Shown here one piece after another: positions 5,970 through 23,294 of a stretch of 35,029 nucleotides of DNA (position 1 is its first letter; each line of letters starts with the position of its first letter). This DNA is from Alphaproteobacteria bacterium (GTDB taxonomy: Bacteria; Pseudomonadota; Alphaproteobacteria; Acetobacterales; Acetobacteraceae). The position numbers were made by a program, and so were the translations under genes. Under the pieces are notes generated by a model that worked only from the letters and a program-made list of their open reading frames with translations, was not told the origin of the DNA and ran no database searches. The stretch covers positions 1-35,029 of the forward strand of contig JAPLOK010000211.1 in assembly GCA_026400775.1 (NCBI GenBank), read 5' to 3'.

Positions 5970-6581
5970 TCAATCTGCCAATACGCCATGTTGTCGCAAG
6001 AAGGCCAACAGCGGCAGCATGGGCATGCCCAGGATGGCGCTGTGCTCGCCCTCGATGCGGGTGAACAGGTGCATGCCAGGCCCTTCCAGCCGGTAGCCGC
6101 CAACTGAATGTCGCGCGGCCTCGCCCTCCACCGCGACATAGGCGGCGATGAAGGCGTCCGACAGGGGGCGCATGGTCAGCGCCATGCGTCCGGCGTGCTG
6201 CCACACGCGCTGGCCATGGCGATGCGCCACCACGCCATTCACCAAATGGTGTGTGCGGCCGGAGAGGGCGCGCAAATGCCCTGCCACGGCAGCGGCATCC
6301 AGCGGCTTGTCGAACCATTGCCCCTCGCACAGCAGCAGCTGGTCGGCGCCGATCACCAGCGCATCGGGGTGGCGGCGGGCGATGCGGGTGGCCTTGGCAT
6401 CGGCCAGCATCACCGCGGCGTCTTCCGCGCGCAGCTGCTCGGCCTGAGCAGAGGTCTTCAGGGCGTTCTCATCGACTGCGGCCGGCATGGCTTCGAAACG
6501 CAGCCCGGCGGCGCGCAGCAGGGATTGGCGTGCGGCAGACTGGCTGGCCAGGATCAGCGCGGGCGCGGACGCCTGGATCAC
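5970..6581 (-). CDS. maf: Maf family nucleotide pyrophosphatase
   Basis: [38 protein letters not shown]...IGADQLL...; GTG start at 6581 overlaps the upstream gene's stop (GTGA). Confidence 0.92.
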
Positions 6582-7465
6582 GTCTTGCCCAGCACGGCGG
6601 CGGCCGGATCCTCGGGCGTGGGTTCTGTGTGGGCTCCGCGCTTGCGGTGCCAGATTTCCATTTGCTGCAGCACAGTGGCGGCGGTCTCCTCGATGCTGCG
6701 GCGGGTGACATCCACCACAGGCCAGCCATTGGCCGAACACAGGCGCCGCGCGGCCAGGATTTCGGCTTTCACCGCTTCCTGATCGATGTAGTCGGTCTCA
6801 TCCTGACGGATACCGCCGCCGCCGATGATCTTCAGCCGGTGGCGGCGGATTTCGATCAGCGCCTGCACATCAATGGTCAGCCCGACCACCGGACAGGGCG
6901 GCGATACCAGTTCCGCCGGCAAGGGCGCGCCAGGCACCAGCGGGACATTCGCCGCCTTCACGCCCCGATTCGCCAGATAGAAGCAGGTCGGCGTCTTGGA
7001 GGAGCGTGAGACGCCAACCAGCACAACATCCGCATTGGCAAAACCCGCACTGCCCTGGCCGTCATCATGGGCCAGCACGTAATGCATCGCGTCGATCCGG
7101 CGGAAATAGTCGCTGTCCATCACGTGCTGGGCGCCGCGCTTGGGCTTCGCCGGCGCACCGATTTCGTGCGCCAGCAATTCCATGGCCTGGTCCAGCACAG
7201 AGAGGCAAGGCACGTGCAGCCTGGCGCAGGTTTCCTCCAGGGCGTGGCGCAGCGACTGGTCGACCAGGGTGAACAGGACCGGGCCAGGTTCGTGCTCAAG
7301 GCCCTCCAGCACGCGGTCCAGGTTCATGCGGCTGCGCACCAGCGACCAGCGGTGGTGGATGACCTGGTGGTTCTCGAAGCGCGCCAGAATGGCGCGGCCA
7401 ATGCTGTTCAACGTCTCCCCGGTGCTGTCGGAGACGAGATGCAGGTTGATCCCGCGCTGGTCCAT
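6578..7465 (-). CDS. Pyruvate phosphate dikinase / PEP synthase regulatory protein (DUF299 kinase/pyrophosphorylase)
   Basis: [32 protein letters not shown]...[33 protein letters not shown]...[37 protein letters not shown]. Start at ATG 7465. Confidence 0.95.
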
Positions 7466-7814
7466 CAGGCTCTCCGCAACGCTGCTTGCTGGGCACACAT
7501 AGGCTGTGCAGGACCGCTGGGGAACAGCGTGGATCACTGTGGAGAATGTGGATGATGTGGTGCCGCCTAGCCAGGCCCGGCCGATAACGGGGATGCATGG
7601 CACAAACTGACAAACCGGCATGTATCCGGGGTGAACAAGCTGGAGAACGGGGACACGCCCAGGAGTAGCTCGCAAGAGCAAGGCCTTGCGCGCCGGCCAC
7701 CCCCTGGGATAGGCCGTGGACATTGCCCGGCGGAGCGGGGTTGCACGCTATCCACACCCCCTACAGACAACCACATCTATCTTACTTCTTAGTTTATGGC
7801 TGATAGTAGGGCCG
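7466..7814. promoter_or_regulatory. oriC: Candidate chromosomal replication origin (oriC) between the DUF299 gene and hemE
   Basis: DnaA-box-like 9-mers CGTGGATCA (7528-7536), TGTGGAGAA (7538-7546), TGTGGATGA (7547-7555) and CTATCCACA (7748-7756), plus an AT-rich stretch at about 7766-7803. Divergent hemE context matches known alphaproteobacterial origins such as Caulobacter. Confidence 0.6.
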
Positions 7815-8858
7815 ATGAACGAAACGACAAAACCGATCCTGCGTGCTCTGGCCGGCGAACCGGTCTGGCCGCCACCGGCCTGGATGATGCGCCAGGCCGG
7901 CCGCCATCTCCCTGAATACAAGGCTACACGGGCCGAGGCTGGGAGCTTCCTGGCACTCGCAACCACGCCACATCTGGCGGCTGAGGTGACGCTGCAACCG
8001 GTGCGCCGCTATGGCATGGACGGCGCCATCCTCTTCAGCGACATCCTGATGGTGCCCTGGGCGCTCGGCCAGAAGCTGTGGATGGAGGAGGGTGAAGGCC
8101 CTCGCCTGGAACCCATCCAGGACATGGCCGCTCTTTCCCGCCTGGACCCCGGCCGCCTGCGCGGTGAGGCACAATGCATCTTCGACACCGTCACCCTGAC
8201 CCGCAACGCGCTGGATGAAGCCTGCAGCCGCACCACCTTGCTGGGCTTTGCAGGCAGCCCCTTCACCGTCGCCTGCTACATGATCGAGGGCCGCGGCGGA
8301 TCGGATTTCGCCTTTACCCGGCATCTCGCCTACACGGACCCCGCATTTTTCGGCCGCCTGATCCGCATTCTGACCGATGCCACGGTGGAATACCTGTTGG
8401 GCCAGGTGGAAGCGGGCGCCGAGGCGCTAATGCTGTTCGACAGCTGGTCGGGCCTGCTCTCGCCCAGCCAGTTCCGGCGCTGGGTGATCGAGCCCACGGC
8501 GAATATCCGCCGTGCCATCGGCCAGGCCGCGCCACTTATCCCGATGATTGGGTTTCCGCGCCTGGCGGGGTCGATGTTCGGGGATTACGCGGCCCGCACC
8601 GGCATGCAGGGCCTGGCCATGGACACCCACATGGACCCGCGCTGGGCTGCACAGCAGATCCCGGCTGAGATGGCGTTGCAGGGCAATCTGGACCCGCTGG
8701 CCTTGATCGCCGGCGGTGTCGCGCTGGAGACTGAGGCCCGGGCGCTGCTCGCGGCCATGCGCGGCCGGCCCTACATCTTCAATCTGGGCCATGGGATCGA
8801 GAAGGAAACGCCCATCGAACACGTGATGGCACTGCTTCGTCTGGTCCGCGGGGGTTGA
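7815..8858 (+). CDS. hemE: Uroporphyrinogen decarboxylase
   Basis: MNETTKPILRALAGEPVWPPPAWMMRQAGRHLPEYKATR...AILFSDILMVPWALG...LFDSWSGLLSP...NLDPLAL...FNLGHGIEKETPIEHV. Confidence 0.98.
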   Translation: MNETTKPILRALAGEPVWPPPAWMMRQAGRHLPEYKATRAEAGSFLALATTPHLAAEVTLQPVRRYGMDGAILFSDILMVPWALGQKLWMEEGEGPRLEPIQDMAALSRLDPGRLRGEAQCIFDTVTLTRNALDEACSRTTLLGFAGSPFTVACYMIEGRGGSDFAFTRHLAYTDPAFFGRLIRILTDATVEYLLGQVEAGAEALMLFDSWSGLLSPSQFRRWVIEPTANIRRAIGQAAPLIPMIGFPRLAGSMFGDYAARTGMQGLAMDTHMDPRWAAQQIPAEMALQGNLDPLALIAGGVALETEARALLAAMRGRPYIFNLGHGIEKETPIEHVMALLRLVRGG

Positions 8859-12362: not shown

Positions 12363-14006
12363 TCATTTCCATTGCTCGTCCGAGACCTCCTTGCGCCGCG
12401 CCGCCTTGGGCGGCAGCGGCGGCGTGATGGCGCCGGGCCGGCCGAGATGCCAGCCCTGGCCATAGGACACGCCCAGCGAGGCCATGGTGGTGACATGCGC
12501 CTCCGTCTCGATGCGTTCGGCGATGACCTTGGCACCCACCGCCAGCGACAGATCGACCATGGAGGCGACGAAGCTGCGGTCGCGCTCACCGGTCATGGCG
12601 GCTTCGACGAAGCTGCCATCGATCTTCACGAAATCCACCGGGAAGGCCTTGAGGTAGCGGAAGGCCGCTGCACCGGCGCCGAAATCATCCAGGCAGGTCG
12701 GGATGCCGCGATCGCGAAGGGCAATGATGGTGGCCACCGCTGCCTGTTCGTGTTCGATTTCAGCGCTTTCGGTCAGCTCCACCATCAGCCGTTCGGCGTA
12801 GGCCGGCAAGTTGTCCAGCCTGGTGGAGACCTGCTGGCGGAACTCGGCGCTCTGCATGGACAGGCCGGACATGTTGATCGCGATGCGCTGCGAGCCGCTC
12901 AGCAGCGGAAAGCTTGCGGCGGCCTGGTCCAGCACCGCCAGATCCAGTTCCTCCGTCAGGCCGACCATCTCGGCCAGGTTGACGAATTCGGCAGGCCCCT
13001 GGCCATTGCCGAGCATGCCCTTGTGCGGACGCAGCAGCGCTTCGTAGTGATGCAGCACGCGGTTATGCAGGTCCAGGATGGGTTGGAATTGCAGCGTGAA
13101 GCGACGCTCGCGCAGCGCGCGGCGGAAGGTTTCAGCGCGTTCGCCGACATCTGCGACGAAGGCGGCGATGCCCTTGTCGAAGCCGGCATCGCGCAGCCCA
13201 TCTGTCCCGCCGGTGGCGAAGGTGGAAAGGCATGCCCGCACCGCGCGCACCACCTGCGCGGGATTGAGCCCCGTAGCATCCAGCGCAATGGCGCCGAGCT
13301 TCAGCACCCGGACCATATCCTGCTCCGGCATAGCGTGCTGGAGGGCTGCCATGATCTCATCCATGGCTGGCATGGGCTGGCCGGCGCGCGGCAGCACGCC
13401 GAAGCGGCCGGGCGCCACTTCGGCCGAGACGAAGGCACTGGACAGGGTATTGTTCAAGACGTTGCTGATGGCCGGTTGCAGCGCCGAATGGCCCGAGCGC
13501 AATTCGATCACGCTCAACCGGTCGGGCCCGGGAGCACCCTGGGCTGCGCTGCGCAGCTGGCTTTCAACCTGCTGCAACAGCCCCGCGGCCCCGCGCCCGC
13601 CTGGGCGCCTGCGATCGGGCGTGGAGGGTGGCTGACCGAAGCTGATGCAGAGCCGTGGTGTATGGCCCGGCAGCACAAGATGCAGGCCGGATACGACGAT
13701 CATGGAGCCCTTCTGGTCCGCCAGCCGTACCATTTGCGGCTCCAGCCGGCCGCGCAAGGGCATCATGGACAGCTCGGCGGCCAAGCCCTCCCGTTCCTCG
13801 GGCGCGAGTAGGTCGAGCAACGAGGTGCCGGTTAGCTGCTCAGGCGAGCGGCCGAAACGGGCACGGAAGGCGCCGGTGGCGAAGAAGATCAACCCATCTT
13901 CGGAGCATTCCAGGAGCATATCAGCTGAGGCGAAGGCGAAAGCGACAAAGCGTTCGCGCTCACCCAAAGGGCGTGTTCCATCCGGCATGAGTGGATAATC
14001 CGCCAT
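12363..14006 (-). CDS. EAL-domain protein with N-terminal PAS-like region (putative c-di-GMP phosphodiesterase)
   Basis: YEALLRP, INMSG, ELTES, LDDFGAGAAAFRYLKAFPVDFVKIDGSF, IAERIETEAH and GQGWHLGRP match EAL motifs; N-terminal FASADMLLECSEDGLIFFATGAFRARFGRSPEQLTG is PAS-like. Confidence 0.9.
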   Translation of the reverse strand: MADYPLMPDGTRPLGERERFVAFAFASADMLLECSEDGLIFFATGAFRARFGRSPEQLTGTSLLDLLAPEEREGLAAELSMMPLRGRLEPQMVRLADQKGSMIVVSGLHLVLPGHTPRLCISFGQPPSTPDRRRPGGRGAAGLLQQVESQLRSAAQGAPGPDRLSVIELRSGHSALQPAISNVLNNTLSSAFVSAEVAPGRFGVLPRAGQPMPAMDEIMAALQHAMPEQDMVRVLKLGAIALDATGLNPAQVVRAVRACLSTFATGGTDGLRDAGFDKGIAAFVADVGERAETFRRALRERRFTLQFQPILDLHNRVLHHYEALLRPHKGMLGNGQGPAEFVNLAEMVGLTEELDLAVLDQAAASFPLLSGSQRIAINMSGLSMQSAEFRQQVSTRLDNLPAYAERLMVELTESAEIEHEQAAVATIIALRDRGIPTCLDDFGAGAAAFRYLKAFPVDFVKIDGSFVEAAMTGERDRSFVASMVDLSLAVGAKVIAERIETEAHVTTMASLGVSYGQGWHLGRPGAITPPLPPKAARRKEVSDEQWK

Positions 14007-20426: not shown

Positions 20427-21068
20427 ATGCCCTGGACCCGCGACCAGATGGCCGCCCGCGCGGCGCGCGAATTGCAGGATGGGTTCTATGTGAACCTCGG
20501 TATTGGCATCCCGACGCTGGTGGCCAACCACATCCCATCAGGCATGCATGTGCAGCTGCAAAGCGAGAACGGCATGCTCGGCATCGGTCCCTTCCCCGAG
20601 GAAGGCTCGGAAGATGCCGACCTGATCAATGCCGGCAAGCAGACCGTCTCGATGCTGCCGACCACCAGCATCTTCAGCAGCGCCGACAGCTTTGCGATGA
20701 TCCGCGGCGGGCATATCGACCTGTCCATCCTGGGCGCGCTGCAGGTGGCCGCGAATGGCGACCTGGCGAACTGGATGGTCCCGGGCAAGATGGTCAAGGG
20801 CATGGGCGGCGCCATGGACCTGGTGGCCGGCGTGAAGCGCGTGATCGTGACGATGGAACACACCGCCGGCGGCAAGTCCAAGCTGCTGCCCGCCTGCAAT
20901 CTGCCGCTGACCGGCAGCCGCGTGGTGGACATGGTGGTAACGGACTTGGGCGTGTTCTCGGTGGCGCGGCGCGGCGAGACCGACCTGGCGCTGCTGGAGC
21001 TGGCGCCGGGCGTGAGCCTGGATGAGATGACCGCCAAGACCGAGGCCAAGTTCCGTATCGCGCTATGA
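20427..21068 (+). CDS. scoB: 3-oxoacid CoA-transferase subunit B
   Basis: [37 protein letters not shown]...[13 protein letters not shown]...[52 protein letters not shown]. Confidence 0.96.
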
Positions 21069-21902
21069 GCGCGTGAGCAGCCCCAGGATTTGATCGAACT
21101 GGTCCAGGTTGCGATACTCGATAGTGATGCGACCGGCGCCCTTGCCGGTCTGCGCGATGGCAACCTTGAAGCCCAGCTTGCGTTGCAGGTCCCGCTCCAG
21201 CGCCGCGACCTCGGCGGCGCCGGCCGGTTCGGCGGCGGGCTTGGGCGGGGGCGCCTTGGCCAGGGCTTCGGCCTGGCGGACATTCAGGCCGCGATCAACG
21301 ACTTGTAAGGCCGCCGCCACCGGGTCCGGCAGCTTCAGCAGCGCCCTGCCATGGCCGGCGGTCAGAGCGCCCTCACGCAGCAATCCCTGCACGCGGACGG
21401 GCAGTTCCAGCAGGCGCATGGTGTTGGCCACATGCGGGCGGGACTTGCCCACAGCCTCGGCCAGTTCCTGTTGCGTCAGGCCGAATTGCGCCTGCAGGCG
21501 GCCATAGCCTTCGGCTTCCTCCAGCGCGTTGAGATCCTCGCGCTGCAGGTTCTCCACCAGGCCTGCGGCCATGGCTTCGGTGTCCGTGAAGGCGCGGATG
21601 ACGACCGGCACCTCATGCTTCTGCGCCAGCTGCGCGGCGCGCCAGCGGCGTTCGCCGCCGATGATCTGGTAGCGGTCGGGCGTTTTGGGCTTCGGGCGCA
21701 CCAGGATGGGTTGCAGCACGCCATGGCGGCGGATCGACGCCGCCAGCTCCTCCAGCGCCGCTGGTTCCATCGCGCCGCGCGCCTGGAAGGGGCCGGGCTC
21801 CAGCGCCGTGACGGGCAGGTTGCGCGTGGTTTCGGGTGTGGCGGTCGCGACATCGCCCAGCAGGGCGGACAGGCCGCGGCCGAGGCGGGGCTGCTTGCTC
21901 AT
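21063..21902 (-). CDS. parB: Chromosome partitioning protein ParB
   Basis: [12 protein letters not shown]..., [57 protein letters not shown]...[22 protein letters not shown]...[10 protein letters not shown]. Confidence 0.97.
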
Positions 21903-22756
21903 GCCGAGAGTTTCCGCCGCGCCCGGTCGCGCCGCAACAATTCCGTGGCCAGCGCCACATAGGCCTGCGCGCCCGGCGAGCGGAAATCATAAACCGTGAC
22001 CGGCAGCCCATGGGACGGCGCCTCAGAGACGCGGATATTGCGGGGGATTTCGGTCTCGAACACCTTTGGCCCGAAATGGCCGCGCACATCATCGGCCACC
22101 GCCGAGGAGAGGTTGTTGCGGCGGTCCATCATGGTCAGCACGATGCCTTCCAGTTCGAGCTTCGGGTTGAAGCCGCGGCGCACGCGCTCAATTGTCTGGG
22201 TGATCTGGGACACGCCTTCCAGGGCGTAGAACTCCGCCTGCAATGGCACCAGCACGGCATCGGCCGTGACCAGGGCGTTGAGCGTGATGAAGCCGAGCGA
22301 GGGCGGGCAATCCAGCAGCACCCAGTCGAAACCCGTGATGCCTGCCAGCGCATCGCGCAGCCGTGTCTCGCGGCCCGGAAGGTCCACCAGCTCCACCTCA
22401 CCACCGGCAAGATCATGGTCGGCCGGCAGGATGGACAGGTTGGGCACGCTCGTTGCCCGGATGGCCTGGGTGGCGGGGCGGCCTTCGATCAGCACGGCAT
22501 ATGTGCCGGGCCTGCGCGCCGGGCGGTCCAGGCCGAGGCCGGTGGAAGCATTGCCCTGGGGGTCGAGATCAACCAGCAGCACCTTGTGCCGCGCGGCCAG
22601 GGTCGCTGCCAGGTTCACGGCCGTCGTGGTCTTGCCCACGCCGCCTTTCTGGTTGGCAATCGCCAGGATTCTCAGGGGTTTTGGGTCAGGCAGGGCGCAA
22701 ATCCCGGATGCGGAAGATGGTGGCTTCCGCATCCGTGTGGCTGCCGAAGCGTTCAA
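21899..22756 (-). CDS. parA: Chromosome partitioning ATPase ParA
   Basis: ILAIANQKGGVGKTTTAVNLAATLA...LLVDLDPQGNASTGLG...VLLDCPPSLGFITLNAL. The exact start is uncertain; this ORF overlaps the end of rsmG and the true start may be further in. Confidence 0.96.
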   Translation of the reverse strand: MNASAATRMRKPPSSASGICALPDPKPLRILAIANQKGGVGKTTTAVNLAATLAARHKVLLVDLDPQGNASTGLGLDRPARRPGTYAVLIEGRPATQAIRATSVPNLSILPADHDLAGGEVELVDLPGRETRLRDALAGITGFDWVLLDCPPSLGFITLNALVTADAVLVPLQAEFYALEGVSQITQTIERVRRGFNPKLELEGIVLTMMDRRNNLSSAVADDVRGHFGPKVFETEIPRNIRVSEAPSHGLPVTVYDFRSPGAQAYVALATELLRRDRARRKLSA

Positions 22757-23294
22757 CCGCCATGTGCCAGTGTGGGGTGGCCTCGGTCAACTCGGCATCG
22801 GCTGTGCGGCCCTTGGGGAAGACCGCTATTCCGCCTTCACCCAGGTGTTGGCGTGCCCAGGGCAGCAATAGCGACAGCGGCGCCAGCGCGCGGGCCGTGA
22901 TGGCGGCCAGTGGCGGCAGGTGGGCTGCCTCGATTCGCGTGGCATGCACGGTCACATGGGCCAGGCCCATCTCGCGCGCGGCCTCCCGCAGGAAGGCGGA
23001 TTTGCGCTGGTCGGCCTCGACCAGGTGCATCGGGTCCGGGCGGGCGGCAGCGAGGATGAGGCCGGGCAGGCCGCCGCCGGAGCCCAGATCGGCGCATTCG
23101 CCTGGTGGCAGCAGGGGGGCGAGCTGAAGGCTGTCCTGCACGTGGCGGGTGCGCCACAGCGCGGGGGTGCCGGGGCCGACCAGGTTGATTCGGCTGTTCC
23201 AACGCTCCAGCAGGGCCAGATAGGCCTCAATCCGGTCCATTGTTTCACGTGAAACATCTGGGGCGGGCGGCAGCGGATGTTTCACGTGAAACAC
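22686..23294 (-). CDS. rsmG: 16S rRNA (guanine-N7) methyltransferase RsmG
   Basis: MDRIEAYLALLERWNSRINLVGPG...WRTRHVQDSLQLAPLLPPGECADLGSGGGLPGLILAAARPD. GTG start at 23294 or ATG at 23240; the choice decides whether the parS sites are coding. Confidence 0.95.
   Translation of the reverse strand: MFHVKHPLPPAPDVSRETMDRIEAYLALLERWNSRINLVGPGTPALWRTRHVQDSLQLAPLLPPGECADLGSGGGLPGLILAAARPDPMHLVEADQRKSAFLREAAREMGLAHVTVHATRIEAAHLPPLAAITARALAPLSLLLPWARQHLGEGGIAVFPKGRTADAELTEATPHWHMAVERFGSHTDAEATIFRIRDLRPA
23241..23256. promoter_or_regulatory. parS: parS site (ParB-binding centromere)
   Basis: TGTTTCACGTGAAACA, perfect 16-bp palindrome identical to the conserved bacterial parS consensus. Confidence 0.96.
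23278..23293. promoter_or_regulatory. parS: parS site (second copy)
   Basis: TGTTTCACGTGAAACA, perfect palindrome, 37 bp from the first copy. Confidence 0.96.

Follow-up and report, generated by a model that had tools for sequence, protein, structure and literature searches.

A probable DnaA-dependent chromosomal replication origin between the PPSR gene and hemE in an Acetobacteraceae genome

Here, we analyzed a 35,029-bp stretch of DNA (the window), which is one whole contig (C443) of a 516-contig, 4.1-Mb draft genome, and propose that DnaA-dependent replication of the main chromosome starts in the 349-bp gap between the window's divergent PPSR and hemE genes, which would be an oriC of the Cori type; to this sequence-based reading we assign a probability of about 0.9. 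The proposal builds on what could be shown directly, that is, the sites within the gap, their conservation, and, in relatives, chromosome-scale polarity and parS proximity. A first-pass annotation had already read the gap as an origin; its location, box cluster, AT-rich flank, proximity to parS/parAB, and Caulobacter-like address all support that reading, to which our analysis adds conservation of the sequence across the family, a GC skew that reaches its minimum at the element in the complete genome of the relative G068, and a reversal of KOPS polarity near hemE in Rhodovarius, the window's own genus.

RESULTS

Gene layout. The named relatives of the window's hemE belong to Rhodovarius and other Acetobacteraceae. 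The minus strand carries rho, maf, and the PPSR/DUF299 gene up to the gap, beyond which hemE and hemH follow on the plus strand; farther right, from 21 to 26 kb, the minus strand carries parB, parA, rsmG, mnmG, and mnmE in this order (Table 1). The gap bounds proposed earlier are correct, with the PPSR start codon at 7463-7465, and the 10 N-terminal residues of PPSR are kept in relatives. At the left end of the window, positions 1 to 2600 have a low GC content (0.48-0.56) and hold open reading frames of 651 (172-2127) and 150 (2129-2581) amino acids, neither with a match in Pfam or PHROGs; this stretch may be a foreign insertion.

Table 1. Features of the proposed origin and its surroundings (window coordinates)
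Feature	Position	Strand	Evidence
PPSR gene (DUF299/COG1806, Kinase-PPPase), left flank of proposed origin	6578..7465	-	PF03618, E 1.4e-85
Proposed chromosomal replication origin, 349-bp divergent PPSR/hemE gap	7466..7814	.	
PPSR-side phased array of degenerate DnaA boxes (predicted)	7519..7555	-	columns conserved across 42 gaps
Array box TGATCCACG	7528-7536	-	
Array box TTCTCCACA	7538-7546	-	
Array box TCATCCACA	7547-7555	-	
hemE-side origin core (R1 match)	7700..7798	+	50.7 bits, E 4.2e-13
Core DnaA box (predicted) CTATCCACA, most conserved site of the gap	7748..7756	+	columns nearly invariant, 42 genomes
AT-rich stretch, putative unwinding element	7769..7795	.	70% A+T
hemE, right flank of proposed origin	7815..8858 (ATG 7815)	+	PF01208, E 4e-108
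parB	21063..21902	-	TIGR00180, E 4.8e-56
parA	21899..22756	-	AAA_31, E 1.2e-54, and place beside parB
Two perfect parS 16-mers TGTTTCACGTGAAACA	23241-23256, 23278-23293	.	0 expected in shuffles

A cluster of DnaA-box-like sites. All box strings listed by the first-pass annotation occur where it had placed them, and the cluster it described withstands comparison with chance: the gap holds four sites that differ from TTATCCACA or TGATCCACA by one change at most, three of them inside 28 bp, compared to a mean of 0.11 such sites in shuffled gaps, where four were never reached (0/1000). Three such sites inside 40 bp were likewise never seen in 200 shuffles of the whole window. A perfect TTATCCACA is not present within the gap, and at two mismatches the whole window shows no enrichment for this motif (36 matches found, 31.6 expected), so the signal is the cluster and not the motif. 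Across four genomes, perfect TTATCCACA matches are rare and unclustered, and this pattern is therefore no origin finder here; the hemE gap of G209 lacks any box that matches TTATCCACA with at most one change. We rejected TGTGGTGCC (7556-7564), which had been proposed as a fourth phased box, since it lies four changes from the consensus and cannot be counted. The array on the PPSR side has the family form GGAGAATAGCGTGGAT-GCTGTGGATAA-CGGGGAAAA, with individual boxes degenerate in many relatives, and the conserved heart of the element is not this phased trio but the box at 7748.

Family-wide conservation of the hemE-side core. The divergent PPSR/hemE gap is retained in the relative loci that we fetched, mostly with a length of 283-335 bp, and in an alignment of 42 gaps both ends are conserved whereas the middle varies. 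Conservation across Acetobacteraceae is deepest at the hemE end (7700-7798), where two weak boxes, the first on the minus and the second on the plus strand, precede the core box (family form nATCCACAGG), which is followed by a GC spacer and then by the AT-rich stretch. Among three close species the core box is invariant and the DNA spanning this box and the AT-rich stretch has hardly changed, with the middle of the gap diverged. We captured this end in a sequence-only family model, R1, which has a single strong match in its own genome (runner-up E 0.047) and, at an E value of 0.1 or better, has hits in 112 of 120 family genomes, many of them outside the training set and some without an adjacent PPSR gene. 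In 67 of 80 named loci, the R1 site lies no more than 250 bp upstream of hemE and in hemE's orientation. Beyond the family, 16 of the ∼75 genomes searched from other families match at an E value of 0.01 or better, although the weakest of these matches may be due to chance. One Rhodovarius relative (locus L008, G007:C12) has an 877-bp gap with two tandem copies of the core (13232-13331 and 13817-13917), possibly a duplicated origin or an assembly artifact.

The AT-rich stretch that had been noted past CTATCCACA is present, and its place is conserved: from 20 to 40 bp past the core box, mean A+T content in the 42 genomes is 68-70%, compared to 26-45% over most of the gap. With the AT-rich first 2.6 kb excluded, only ∼0.03% of the window's 27-mers are as AT-rich as the one at 7769-7795 (70% A+T). 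Judged from its composition and position, 7769-7795 is probably the unwinding element. DnaA-trios, sought as runs of at least three within 0-16 bp after the box, reach a longest run of one in the window and three in only 4 of 42 relatives, fewer than in shuffled sequence and thus no signal above chance; a run of four begins 22 bp after the box.

The core is always found with hemE, even in G068, which has no adjacent PPSR gene, and the AT-rich stretch stops ∼20 bp before the hemE start, at the usual position of a promoter. Given that DnaA regulates genes as well, one could suppose that the conserved element is merely the promoter of hemE (and PPSR) with a DnaA-regulated control region, the true origin being elsewhere. 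We consider this improbable, because the GC-skew minimum of G068 falls at the element, KOPS polarity reverses near hemE in both G209 and G005, parS is close, and the locus is homologous to the mapped Caulobacter address; moreover, promoter and origin roles can coexist in the same DNA.

Chromosome-scale polarity in relatives. Because the source assembly consists of 516 contigs, its ori-ter axis is not measurable, and chromosome-scale skew was examined in three relatives (G068, G209, and G005). In the window itself, GC skew is on the whole positive to the left and right of the gap, and negative values begin only past ∼24.5 kb. There is thus no local switch at the gap, and the skew test suggested by the first-pass annotation calls for a closed genome. 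The G068 genome, a single contig of 2.18 Mb, has a GC-skew profile shaped like a clean V: the skew changes from negative to positive within the 1819-1839 kb sample, where the element itself lies (1836.4 kb, between maf and hemE), and has its maximum near 0.76 Mb, roughly half the chromosome away.

G209 is a single contig of 4.21 Mb with only a weak GC skew, and k-mer strand asymmetry places its axis near 0.53/2.63 Mb. The KOPS motif was not presupposed: GGGCAGGG emerged as the most polar octamer between the G209 arms with the hemE region excluded, the arms having been picked with the position of the axis roughly known beforehand. Its orientation flips at 0.54 and 2.64 Mb, and hemE lies at 2.72 Mb, which puts the change point ∼75-85 kb off. 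In the Rhodovarius genome G005 (a 1.24-Mb contig), KOPS polarity flips at 0.92-0.96 Mb (support interval, 879-1021 kb), that is, ∼24-166 kb from hemE at 1.045 Mb, and polarity differs between the left and right of hemE (P = 2.4e-4 or less). As to these offsets, KOPS are known to be weakly polar near origins. The GC skew of G005 stays positive across the hemE gap, with no switch there, and codon-corrected skew was of no help in either G005 or the window; in the GC-rich G209 and G005, KOPS marks the ori-ter axis better than GC skew does. The E. coli-type KOPS, GGGCAGGG/GGGNAGGG, is strongly polar in Acetobacteraceae (G209, G005, and G068). Together, the skew and KOPS tests put the origin near hemE, not to the base pair.

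Partition sites and the neighboring region. parS/parAB had been placed ∼14 kb from the gap; the proximity is real, but the measured distance to the nearest parS is 15.4 kb. In nearly all complete relatives parS lies 8-100 kb from the gap (8 kb in G114, 9 kb in G116, 13 kb in G103, 17 kb in G131, 25 kb in G209, 50 kb in G005, and up to ∼97 kb in others), with G168 an exception for PPSR. The use of parAB as an anchor for finding alphaproteobacterial origins has been advised (PMC8116508). Four more perfect parS 16-mers occur on other contigs of the source draft (C32, C192, C194, and C311); they may be further sites close to the origin, lie on secondary replicons, or come from contaminating contigs.

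In many bacteria, oriC lies beside mnmG. An origin near but outside the gap could therefore be sought either ∼15 kb to the right, in the mnmE-mnmG-rsmG-parAB region where parS is situated, or up to 170 kb away at the KOPS switch, as the change points of KOPS and GC skew miss the gap by tens to ∼170 kb. We find this highly improbable. From position 13.99 kb to the end of the window, no box comes as close as one change to TTATCCACA, and of the 794 kb sampled in G005, including the contiguous 848-1241 kb, the hemE gap has the densest cluster of DnaA boxes. Furthermore, the offsets fall on opposite sides of the PPSR/hemE pair in G005 and G209.

DISCUSSION

Taking the PPSR/hemE gap as the origin, we infer from its sites that it would bind DnaA, contain the opening site, and have origin activity. 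DnaA would bind the weak phased boxes near PPSR together with the anchored boxes near hemE, among them the core box, from which it would spread into 7769-7795 and open the AT-rich stretch for helicase loading. Forks would then depart bidirectionally, with ParB, bound to parS at a distance of ∼15 kb, segregating the newly copied origins.

Automatic origin finders often give several candidates in alphaproteobacteria (PMC8116508). Our proposal would fix the position of the origin for one family of this class with ambiguous automatic calls, and R1 provides a sequence model that could locate it in draft genomes, enabling coverage-based estimates of growth rate. The origin would also lie at the Caulobacter address yet lack CtrA sites, which makes initiation timing in this early branch directly testable.

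The gaps of 49 relatives contain GANTC at 11.8 per kb, compared to 0.90 per kb in their flanks (13 times denser) and 1.3-3.0 per kb in the intergenic DNA of three genomes, and origins of the Caulobacter clade hold several GANTC sites (PMC3973325). There is none in the window gap, nor in that of the nearest sister genome, G008; the source genome encodes a CcrM-like RAMA-domain protein. From the GANTC enrichment, this CcrM-like gene, and the lack of CtrA sites, we speculate that CcrM methylation of GANTC clusters might have replaced CtrA sites in the control of Acetobacteraceae origins, in a manner akin to that of Dam/SeqA with GATC sites at the oriC of E. coli, the lineage of the present species having lost that layer, although we regard this scenario as rather unlikely.

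Comparison with known origins. With the basal unwinding system, which consists of DnaA boxes, a GC spacer, and DnaA-trios (PMC8287927), the gap shares a box followed by a GC-rich spacer and AT-rich DNA, and in many relatives a weaker box stands in tandem directly before the core box; in contrast to that system, DnaA-trio runs here do not exceed those of shuffled sequence. The CtrA-controlled Cori proper differs from the gap, where we find no CtrA site (TTAA-N7-TTAA or TTAACC), no IHF consensus, and no GANTC. The CtrA site TTAA-N7-TTAA occurs in 1 of 50 family loci and the IHF consensus in 0 of 50, the latter being weak evidence because IHF sites are degenerate. The loss of CtrA sites is not surprising, as those Rhodospirillales that have been tested can do without CtrA (PMC8116508).

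The hemE/COG1806 address links the gap to two other alphaproteobacterial origins. The genome of Rickettsia prowazekii is much more AT-rich than the one studied here. Its predicted origin lies between hemE and COG1806, the same flanking genes as in the window (PMC1914354). In Caulobacter crescentus, the experimentally mapped origin, Cori, lies between hemE and CC0001 (COG1806/DUF299, the family of PPSR); the flanking gene pair is the same as ours (PF01208 and PF03618), as the first-pass annotation had anticipated in pointing to hemE, and both loci share divergent flanking genes, DnaA boxes, and an AT-rich stretch (PMC1914354). Unlike in Cori, the core box and AT-rich stretch here adjoin hemE in a fixed layout. 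With divergent hemE and COG1806 flanks, a box cluster, and an AT-rich stretch, three features of the hemE/COG1806 (Cori) type, the gap is, judging by its sequence, very probably a further, well-conserved case of this type of alphaproteobacterial origin.
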